From positions 1,488,001-1,552,000 of the forward strand of contig NC_015496.1 in NCBI RefSeq assembly GCF_000212355.1: 64,000 nucleotides of DNA, given 5' to 3'. Under the pieces are notes generated by a model. The model did no database searches and was not told the DNA's origin. It saw only the letters and a list, made by a program, of their open reading frames with translations. Both the position numbers and the translations under genes were made by a program. Source of the stretch: Dokdonia sp. 4H-3-7-5 (GTDB lineage: Bacteria > Bacteroidota > Bacteroidia > Flavobacteriales > Flavobacteriaceae). This document shows positions 19,676-22,163 of this stretch, piece by piece. Position 1 is the stretch's first letter. Each line of letters opens with the position of its first letter.

Positions 19676-20259
19676 ATACACGTGTAAAAAATATAAAAGA
19701 AGAAATTATAAGTGATCAGTGGGCAACGCTTAAAAAAGTCCATTTTGACTATCAGAATGAAGATGGCTCTTGGGATCAGGTGCGCCGCGAGGTGTATGAT
19801 CGTGGTGATGGAGCTTGTGCGCTGCTATATAATGTAAAAAGGCAAACGGTATTGCTCATCAAACAATTTAGACTGCCAGCATATCTTAATGAGAATGATG
19901 GTTTTCTCGTTGAGGCATGTGCAGGGATGATAGAAGATGAGACTCCAGAACAAACGATTATTAGGGAGATAGAGGAGGAGATGGGGTATCGCATTGATAA
20001 CATTACAAAAGCGGGTGACTTTTTTATGACTCCTGGTGCAAGCACAGAGCGCATTCATATGTTTCTTGCGTCATATGAGGAAGAGCAAAAAGTTAGTAAT
20101 GGCGGTGGTTTGGCAACAGAACATGAAGATATCACTGTGATTGAGTACGCTTTCGCGAAAGCGTTAAAAGCATTAAAAAATGGAGAGATTAGAGATGCAA
20201 AAACCGTAATCTTGCTGCAAAATTTGGCGCTTTCTGGAATCATGGAAAGATCTAACTAG
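19672..20259 (+). CDS. nudK: NUDIX hydrolase, NudK-like
   Basis: 195 residues. The Nudix box spans about 85-106 (GMIEDETPEQ then IIREIEEEMGY). Its first acidic position is shifted as in the NudK/ADP-sugar pyrophosphatase group, and the preceding EACAGM segment also fits NudK, which hydrolyses GDP-mannose. It is coupled to the upstream histidine kinase gene by a 4-bp overlap. A palindromic repeat encodes YAFAKAL near the C-terminus, just before the last helix. Confidence 0.85.
   Translation: MNTRVKNIKEEIISDQWATLKKVHFDYQNEDGSWDQVRREVYDRGDGACALLYNVKRQTVLLIKQFRLPAYLNENDGFLVEACAGMIEDETPEQTIIREIEEEMGYRIDNITKAGDFFMTPGASTERIHMFLASYEEEQKVSNGGGLATEHEDITVIEYAFAKALKALKNGEIRDAKTVILLQNLALSGIMERSN
20147..20164. 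repeat. TTTCGCGAAA palindrome inside NUDIX gene
   Basis: Full 18-bp form, read on the plus strand as YAFAKAL. Confidence 0.95.
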
Positions 20260-20632: not shown

Positions 20633-21022
20633 TTAAAACTCACTTTTTATAACCTCTACAAGCTCTTTAAATTCTCCATCGGTAAGTGTCACTTTTTTCT
20701 TAAACTGGATATCTTCCATAGTTTGTAGCGGTACAAGATGTACATGTACGTGAGGAACTTCAAGACCTATTACAGAGACGCCTACGCGTTTACAAGGCAC
20801 TGCTTTTTCTAGTGCGATAGCAACCTTGCGAGAGAATAGCATGAGGTCGAGATATTCTTGTTCCTCAAGATCAAATATTTTATTTACCTCTTTTTTAGGA
20901 ATACAAAGTGTATGTCCTTTTGCATTAGGATTTACATCCAGAATAGCGATGTGTTTATCATCTTCGGCAACGATGTGTCCCGGAATTTCTCTATTTATAA
21001 TCTTTGTAAAAATGCTTGGCAT
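20633..21022 (-). CDS. HIT family protein
   Basis: 129-residue histidine-triad nucleotide hydrolase or transferase (HINT/Fhit-like). The signature HVHVHLVP (about 91-98) is intact, and the N-terminal FTKIINREIPGHIV matches the HINT subgroup, which hydrolyses AMP-linked phosphoramidates. In many Flavobacteriia this gene directly follows greA (from memory); here the two are separated by the four-helix-bundle cassette at 21026-21512. Confidence 0.93.
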   Translation of the reverse strand: MPSIFTKIINREIPGHIVAEDDKHIAILDVNPNAKGHTLCIPKKEVNKIFDLEEQEYLDLMLFSRKVAIALEKAVPCKRVGVSVIGLEVPHVHVHLVPLQTMEDIQFKKKVTLTDGEFKELVEVIKSEF

Positions 21023-21025
21023 AAT

Positions 21026-21067
21026 TTGAAATTGAAATTGAAATTGAAATTGAAACTGAACTCGAAC
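21026..21067 (+). repeat. Hexanucleotide tandem array, left flank of four-helix-bundle gene
   Basis: Seven 6-bp units: five TTGAAA, then CTGAAC and TCGAAC. It lies between the HIT start codon and the stop of the four-helix-bundle gene. A related array in inverted orientation lies at 21453-21512. Confidence 0.9.
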
Positions 21068-21074
21068 AAGCTCT

Positions 21075-21425
21075 TTATTTACTATTTTTAATTCTGGTGA
21101 CGATTATTCTTATGAGTTGATCGTTTTCATTTCTGAGCGATGCGAGATTGTTTTCTGATAATATATTTGCTTTAACTTGAATGTTGAGATTGCGCATGCT
21201 TTCTCTTAGTTCTTTTAAATAAATTCTGAGTTTATGAACTTTGTCGTTAGTGGTTCCCGCCCCTAAGGCTTCTCCATAGTTTAAAGCAGATGAGCAAGAT
21301 GATCTTATCAATTGTTTTGCGAGGTATTCTGCAGCAAATGAAGATGGTTTTTTACTGTAAAGTATAATAACCGCAGCAGCAAAATCTTCCAGAAGTTCAC
21401 TCAAATCGAAAGGTTTATCGCTCAT
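21075..21425 (-). CDS. Four-helix-bundle protein (S23/IVP-like)
   Basis: 116 residues predicted to form four amphipathic helices, with the motif pattern of the bacterial S23 / 23S rRNA intervening-sequence protein family (AEYLAKQLIRSSCSSALNYGEALGAGT). These proteins are basic or neutral, often mobile, and related in fold to the Avd accessory protein of diversity-generating retroelements; their function is unknown. The gene is tightly flanked on both sides by inverted hexanucleotide arrays and sits between greA and the HIT gene, so it looks like an inserted cassette. There is no reverse transcriptase or rRNA nearby. Confidence 0.88.
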   Translation of the reverse strand: MSDKPFDLSELLEDFAAAVIILYSKKPSSFAAEYLAKQLIRSSCSSALNYGEALGAGTTNDKVHKLRIYLKELRESMRNLNIQVKANILSENNLASLRNENDQLIRIIVTRIKNSK

Positions 21426-21452
21426 GTTATAATTATTTAGCCAACTTCATTT

Positions 21453-21512
21453 TTCAACTTCTCGTTCAATTTCAATTTTAATTTCGAGTTCAACTTCAAC
21501 TTCGAGTTCAAC
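21453..21512 (-). repeat. Hexanucleotide tandem array, right flank of four-helix-bundle gene
   Basis: Ten 6-bp units of the type TTCAAC, TTCGAG and TTCAAT on the plus strand (GTTGAA, CTCGAA and ATTGAA on the minus strand). It is the inverted counterpart of 21026-21067 and abuts the greA stop codon. Confidence 0.88.
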
Positions 21513-21989
21513 TTAGTCCCTTGAGATAGAAACAACGTCAAATTTCATCACGCCACTTGGCACTTGAATTTCGGCTACTTCGCCTACTTCCTTGCCTAGT
21601 AGTCCTTTACCTATAGGTGAGTCTACAGAGATGAGTCCCTTTTTAATGTCGGCTTCATTTTGAGCTACAAGTTTGTAGGTCATGGTTGCGCCATTAATTT
21701 GATTTTTAATTTTTACCGTAGAGTGCACAAGTACTTTAGATGTATCTAGTTGTGACTCGTCAATGATACGTGCATTTGAGGCTAGGTTTTCTAGTTTTGC
21801 AATACGCATTTCAAGCATACCTTGTGCTTCCTTTGCAGCATCATATTCGGCGTTCTCACTTAAATCTCCTTTGTCACGAGCATCTGCAATATCTTGTGAT
21901 GCCTTAGGGCGCTCTACATCGCGTAGGTGATTGAGTTCATCCTTGAGTTTCTTTAAGCCCTCTGGTGTATAATAATTTACCTTACTCAT
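21513..21989 (-). CDS. greA: Transcription elongation factor GreA
   Basis: 158 residues, the normal length. The N-terminal coiled-coil hairpin (about 8-75) carries the acidic tip region DARDKGDLSENAEYDAA that reaches the polymerase active site, and the C-terminal FKBP-like domain ends in the usual GVMKFDVVSI pattern. GreA rescues backtracked RNA polymerase by stimulating transcript cleavage. A terminator-like hairpin lies in its leader (22047-22069). Downstream the four-helix-bundle cassette begins directly at the stop codon. Confidence 0.96.
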   Translation of the reverse strand: MSKVNYYTPEGLKKLKDELNHLRDVERPKASQDIADARDKGDLSENAEYDAAKEAQGMLEMRIAKLENLASNARIIDESQLDTSKVLVHSTVKIKNQINGATMTYKLVAQNEADIKKGLISVDSPIGKGLLGKEVGEVAEIQVPSGVMKFDVVSISRD

Positions 21990-22145: not shown

Positions 22146-22163
22146 ACGCTTTCGCGAAAGCGT
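22146..22163. repeat. TTTCGCGAAA palindrome, intergenic
   Basis: Full 18-bp form in the divergent region between greA and the Rieske-like lipoprotein gene, 15 bp before the latter's start codon. Confidence 0.95.

Follow-up and report, generated by a model that had tools for sequence, protein, structure and literature searches.

We know of no function established for the S23/IVP protein family since 1993 and, equally, of no accepted role for the heptamer repeats of bacteria. In the RAYT/REP system, a tyrosine transposase (RAYT) is encoded by a low-copy, mostly vertically inherited gene that is flanked by inverted repeats and has gene-less derivatives. Rickettsial palindromic elements are inverted-repeat inserts tolerated in frame within protein genes, and carry no gene in another frame. 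The nearest known counterpart of the element described here is the intervening sequence (IVS) of 23S rRNA; S23-bearing intervening sequences are cut by RNase III in Coxiella, according to the passages of PMC4990558 concerned. Heptamer repeats have been reported as TAACTGA in Beggiatoaceae, Cyanobacteria and Bacteroidetes (passages of PMC4679880) and as GGGAATC in Xanthomonas, with ~70 inverted pairs, heptamer repeats being present in Nostoc as well (passages of PMC4692102). A term search of these two papers returned no link between repeats and S23 genes, nor did the open-access literature searched, where such a link could have been missed.

Here we describe an S23 cassette in the window, by which we mean the whole 64-kb stretch of Dokdonia sp. 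4H-3-7-5 DNA analysed (genome G000, 1488001-1552000). Like the 23S rRNA IVS, the cassette encodes a protein of the S23/IVP family, has complementary ends around the S23 frame, sits in sense orientation in a transcribed region and leaves the host product usable. Unlike the IVS, it lies between the greA and HIT frames and not in an rRNA gene, with other copies sometimes inside protein genes, and its ends are short-word arrays with no sign of RNA-stem selection. Across the elements surveyed below, the arrays resemble the heptamer repeats in their mostly 7-nt units and intergenic position and, as regards the ~70 Xanthomonas pairs, in being inverted; the passages on those repeats name no S23 genes, whereas the present arrays bracket one. 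The window unit itself is 6 nt long and not the tandem 7-nt unit of the heptamer simple repeats (STRR/LSSR). With the RAYT/REP system the cassettes share a low-copy, mostly vertical gene between inverted repeats and the existence of gene-less derivatives. In contrast to RAYT, S23 has no such known activity, and the end sequence of the cassette differs from element to element. Inverted repeats and in-frame tolerance are shared with the rickettsial palindromic elements, from which the cassettes differ in carrying a gene in another frame.

An S23 gene framed by inverted hexamer arrays

The insert occupies 490 nt (21023-21512), exactly from the greA stop codon (TAA) to the HIT start, and has empty-site counterparts in relatives. 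It lies on the minus strand, as do its upstream neighbour (21513-21989) and its downstream neighbour (20633-21022), which we take to be greA and a HIT-type protein gene from the reading of ORFs in the first-pass annotation and in the present analysis. In gene orientation, the insert begins with an upstream array of NTYGAA units (21453-21512) that abuts the greA stop codon, TAA being followed by GTTGAACTCGAA... A leader (21426-21452) then holds a 5-codon reading frame, ATGAAGTTGGCTAAATAA, which by eye is present also in G152 and G164 and has lost its stop in G159. The S23/IVP four-helix-bundle gene (116 aa, 21075-21425) follows, and a downstream array of TTTCAA units (21026-21067; TTGAAA on the plus strand) ends 3 nt before the HIT start.

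The left array reads as 5.8 copies of TTGAAA with a 96% match over 21026-21060 and continues as CTGAACTCGAAC to 21067. The right array (21453-21512) is looser, of the same hexamer family in the opposite orientation, and the window unit is best written NTYGAA. No other tandem repeat in the window has as high a Tandem Repeats Finder (TRF) score as these two arrays, with 63 on the left and up to 74 on the right. Aligned as an inverted repeat, the arms reach 28; the best of 2000 shuffles scores 18 and the best of 645 pairs with the same spacing in the rest of the window scores 19, so that complementary ends of the IVS kind are present around this S23 frame. No comparable 6-8-nt arrays were found in a 400-kb sample of the same genome except two A-rich tracts. 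The first-pass annotation had described a gene framed by inverted hexanucleotide arrays, the second abutting the greA stop, and the coordinates, TRF scores and inverted-repeat score all agree with it; its figure of 487 bp is correct for 21026-21512, whereas the full insert measures 490 nt. A reading of the NTYGAA units as codon-like hydrophobic-Glu repeats, noted by eye, was dropped because the words of other copies do not show it.

The window protein scores 61.9 bits against TIGR02436 (cut-off 24) and 43.7 bits against PF05635 (cut-off 33.8). Its predicted monomer model (pLDDT 84.8) has four helices and best matches the S23 structures 2rld (TM 0.86) and 2gsc, followed by Avd (4dwl) and a DGR ribonucleoprotein (8ub7), in line with the four-helix-bundle, S23/IVP and Avd-like fold first assigned to it. 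The predicted model thus has the fold of the Avd of DGRs, and a resemblance of PF05635 is noted in the relevant passage of PMC10053308; unlike a DGR, the window is without a reverse transcriptase match. A pentameric ring is on record for the S23 protein Xcc0516, as relayed by the literature that cites it. No nuclease or recombinase motif is known for the window protein. Among orthologues of the genus, dN/dS is 0.09-0.16 (eight computable pairs, two further pairs being saturated at synonymous sites), and purifying selection acts on the S23 gene in this genus. The G159 orthologue has a premature TGA.

Both arms often carry the same locus-specific word

The survey comprised 251 S23 genes from Flavobacteriaceae, other Bacteroidota, Cyanobacteria, Alphaproteobacteria and other phyla, with neighbour genes called as longest ORFs and some cross-phylum loci taken from metagenome assemblies. 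S23 genes are present in 113 of 149 Flavobacteriaceae genomes and in 153 of 198 Bacteroidota genomes. The 145 Flavobacteriaceae genes analysed come mostly from best-scoring matches and are therefore not a random sample. Their own arms have a mean inverted-repeat score of 18.0, as compared to 11.2 for mispaired arms and 11.1 (maximum 19) for control genes; 36% of elements score above every control, and 44% above all 20 of their mispairs (4.8% expected). In about one third of elements the arms are short or degenerate, and controls can reach the same scores. A strict tandem array lies on at least one side of 62 of the 145 genes and on both sides of 13. Median array length is ~30 nt for both arms in both data sets.

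The words measure 6-8 nt, mostly 7, and are locus-specific and, in many of the 251 elements, common to both arms. Identity at lag 7 is 0.39-0.45 across these elements, compared to 0.28-0.31 after shuffling, and a further peak stands at lag 14, periods 7 and 14 recurring in every data set. Period 8 is preferred in some Bacteroidota, and period 6 in the window family. Pairs of TAG triplets are spaced 7, 14 or 21 nt apart in 293, 237 and 158 instances, no other spacing between 3 and 22 occurring more than 34 times. For the 117 elements with a tandem unit in both arms, the same word is inverted in 61 and direct in 6, and mispaired arms agree in word in 3.3%. TTGAAA, proposed initially as a signature by which to find further copies, was rejected as a general one: the two further S23 genes in this genome are flanked by different arms, and most copies elsewhere carry 7-nt words. 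Copies share no fixed terminal inverted repeat of the DNA transposon or MITE kind, the word differing by locus.

It is scarcely credible that slippage-born heptamer repeats of AT-rich intergenic DNA lie near S23 genes by coincidence. Heptamer repeats are over-represented in some bacteria, for which slippage has been proposed (passages of PMC4679880 and PMC4692102), and some arrays do lie away from S23 genes; yet the same word recurs inverted in both arms, does so in several phyla, and is accompanied by a near absence of arrays in 400 kb of the same genome.

Orientation and sites of the inserts

In Flavobacteriaceae, 141 of the 145 S23 genes are co-directional with both neighbours and one runs against both, which is not the either-orientation insertion of a DNA transposon or MITE; 74% of genes in the same loci agree with both neighbours. 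The 145 genes fall into 69 site classes, among which we take fadB-fadA, hemC-hemE, metH and groES-groEL to be represented, as read by eye from neighbour ORFs and not by family search. Two loci (L027 and L147) have the S23 gene between an apparent groES and groEL. TAG is the stop codon of the upstream gene in 40% of cases, compared with 23% of control genes (p=0.0002); the cross-phylum set gives 44% and 24%, respectively (p=0.002).

The strict co-direction would be expected of an RNA processing module, in which the arms pair in the operon transcript, RNase III cuts, the S23 mRNA is separated and selection acts on the RNA stem. The window RNA folds with its arrays paired (z -2.4), and the intervening sequences of Coxiella provide a precedent (passages of PMC4990558). 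Stem selection, however, should favour G.U over A.C, and arm mismatches in the sense RNA comprise 167 G.U and 208 A.C; the arms therefore do not look selected as an RNA stem, and the candidate explanation that they are kept as one found no support. Overall we consider such a module unlikely. Arms without signs of RNA-stem selection favour instead a unit whose ends would be recognised by its own ring protein.

Empty sites, losses and inheritance among relatives

The first-pass annotation had suggested looking for empty sites in relatives, and these exist. The greA-HIT gap is 4-5 bp in four genomes of the genus (G150, G161, G163, G165) and 12 bp in G153, and is filled by an insert in G000, G152, G159, G149, G164 and G151. 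In G156 it is a clean 4 bp without an array (this assembly is 76% complete); this genome forms a group of three with G164 and G149 that has support 100 and is nested in an insert-bearing clade, and therefore has undergone precise loss or allele replacement. Spacers without the gene measure 88 nt in G155, 139 nt in G157 and 72 nt in G162. Retention of both hexamer arrays at this site in relatives without the gene was initially proposed as evidence against a cassette, as was the lack of these arrays in other copies of the gene, and the outcome is mixed: at greA-HIT one array is kept in this way, the upstream array of G154, and both arms are found without the gene at fadB-fadA in three species (G164, G156, G149), where an 86-bp spacer holds two inverted heptad arms. 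A by-eye comparison of occupied with unoccupied sites at three junctions gave no clear target-site duplication. In G154 and G152 (L315, L317), the fadB-fadA spacer is occupied not by the S23 cassette but by a different hairpin-like repeat (CTCCCCTTTGAAGGGGAG...).

At a second junction (L002), G155 and G165 have an overlapping stop and start, TAATG, and no insert. The inserts of 13 genomes are of three word types, with both arms changing type together; arms of one type score ~14-27 with each other and arms of different types mostly 7-16, the last two types overlapping. Word type appears to follow S23 lineage, as judged by eye without a tree, rather than species, since G156 differs from its close relative G164. 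A TAG opens the array at this junction. In the G152 copy (L310), the S23 start is followed by runs of CCC, AAA and GGG, which looks like an assembly fault.

Across different sites, arm similarity declines with S23 tree distance, from 17.6 below 0.6 to 14.3 below 1.2 and ~10 beyond. Gene and arrays act as a single unit. In 85 of 103 cases the nearest relative occupies the same site, that is, inheritance is mostly vertical. No close S23 pairs at different sites were found among the 145 genes, the closest standing at tree distance 0.21; any jumping is therefore old or rare. The earlier proposal of a discrete cassette is upheld by the empty greA-HIT sites, by gene and arrays changing together and by the related words of related S23 genes at different sites; its second part, that the cassette may move or copy itself by means of the arrays, is not matched by any recent jump.

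Vertical persistence at sites such as fadB-fadA would also suit a host-serving regulator, a vertically kept module in which the S23 ring would attach to its own arrays, as RNA or as DNA, and adjust operon expression, somewhat as the TRAP ring acts on repeated triplets. A dN/dS of about 0.1, evenly spaced NAG triplets and an array length of ~30 nt point the same way. Against this, the 145 genes occupy 69 site classes with no common pathway, losses and allele replacement occur within a genus, and copies are inserted inside reading frames; we consider a regulator unlikely as well.

A non-autonomous retroelement would have its Avd-like protein recruit reverse transcriptase in trans, with RNA copying accounting for the stutter of the arrays as well as for the sense orientation. 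In its favour are the orientation rule and the structural matches that rank just after S23, namely Avd and the DGR ribonucleoprotein; S23 genes are also slightly more numerous in genomes with reverse transcriptase than in those without (4.7 vs 3.1, p=0.04). There is no reverse transcriptase match in the window, though, the six PF00078 matches of this genome lying outside 1488001-1552000, and of the 110 genomes that lack a PF00078 match, 81 have S23 genes, in up to 17 copies. Dependence on reverse transcriptase was set aside as a weak correlation, and a retroelement of this kind seems improbable.

Breadth across phyla and copies inside host frames

The same layout is seen in most cases among 80 loci from Cyanobacteria, Alphaproteobacteria, Planctomycetes, Chloroflexi, Acidobacteria, Nitrospira and others, including two contigs labelled archaeal (L235 and L262, both metagenome assemblies). 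Of the 83 S23 genes at these loci, 65 have a strict tandem array on one side or both, and 39 have one on both. Among six plasmid loci, of which five are cyanobacterial, most likewise have this layout. An Rfam scan of ten loci for rRNA found only one tRNA. On a Pseudanabaena plasmid (L192, 392-2556), an S23 gene with heptad arms lies between cas6 and cas4. S23 genes in cas loci were noted earlier (passages of PMC3936711); these, like the present cas6-S23-cas4 arrangement with arms, may alternatively be inserted cassettes and not cas components.

Outside Flavobacteriaceae, 12 S23 genes lie inside a longer sense frame that extends at least 100 nt past both ends, with two copies spanned antisense; a 13th candidate (L241) is cut by a contig end. 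The same sense-frame test found none among the 145 Flavobacteriaceae genes. All 12 host frames stay open through the insert and have the same frame relative to S23. Synonymous shuffling gives 1-6 expected stops in that frame vs 4-15 in the other, and the frame rule is hence at least partly a codon effect; its reading as a sign of design is weakened. By Pfam, the L251 host is an Eco57I/MmeI-type methylase and the L234 host a histidine kinase, in which the ATPase domain gives a match only beyond the insert, and there from profile position 37 on. When joined, the L251 host flanks match plasmid-borne methylases (68% identity) in a single continuous alignment, and an empty site is therefore shown. 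Among bacterial genes, such an overlap of two open frames on one piece of DNA would be unusual.

A proposed cassette class within host transcripts

On balance we lean towards reading the window insert as one of a widespread class of compact cassettes, each an S23/IVP (Avd-fold) gene between inverted arrays of an element-specific word, and as a generalised form of the rRNA IVS. The occurrence in this genome of single arrays of the window word without an S23 gene counts against this reading. Such a cassette would be set in the direction of transcription at operon gene junctions and elsewhere sometimes inside host frames. It would live within host transcripts, probably depending on host transcription, and would leave its neighbours intact, in that the first word often gives a TAG stop to the upstream gene and intragenic copies keep the frame open. 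We infer that the S23 protein, which in relatives of solved structure forms a pentameric ring, may bind the array words and keep both ends in contact during copying, exchange or rare movement of the cassette; the arms would be kept alike at the DNA level. Mobility and array binding by the protein are both put forward in this conditional sense.

Tentatively, this idea can be extended to the family as a whole. S23/IVP genes might be the coding part of an unrecognised, widespread, transcript-dwelling class, of which the rRNA IVS would be one branch and the heptamer repeats reported from cyanobacteria, Beggiatoaceae and Xanthomonas would largely be arms or gene-less remnants. Tying the S23/IVP family to the heptamer repeats gives each a testable partner.

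Other repeats were seen in this genome and window. A single array of ~18 perfect TTGAAG units (L331, ~1507-1620; G000:277007-277113) lies between two genes and has no S23 gene or inverted partner in view. An intergenic cluster (L332, 979-1892; G000 ~799.0-799.9 kb) consists of several interspersed repeats, among them short TTGAAC-type words in both orientations, also without an S23 gene. In the 64 kb there are 21 occurrences of the palindrome GCTTTCGCGAAAGC, allowing one mismatch (0 expected), from 457 to 60660 of the window (e.g. 20149-20162 and 22148-22161), in genic and intergenic positions, and is reminiscent of HIP1-type iterated palindromes.
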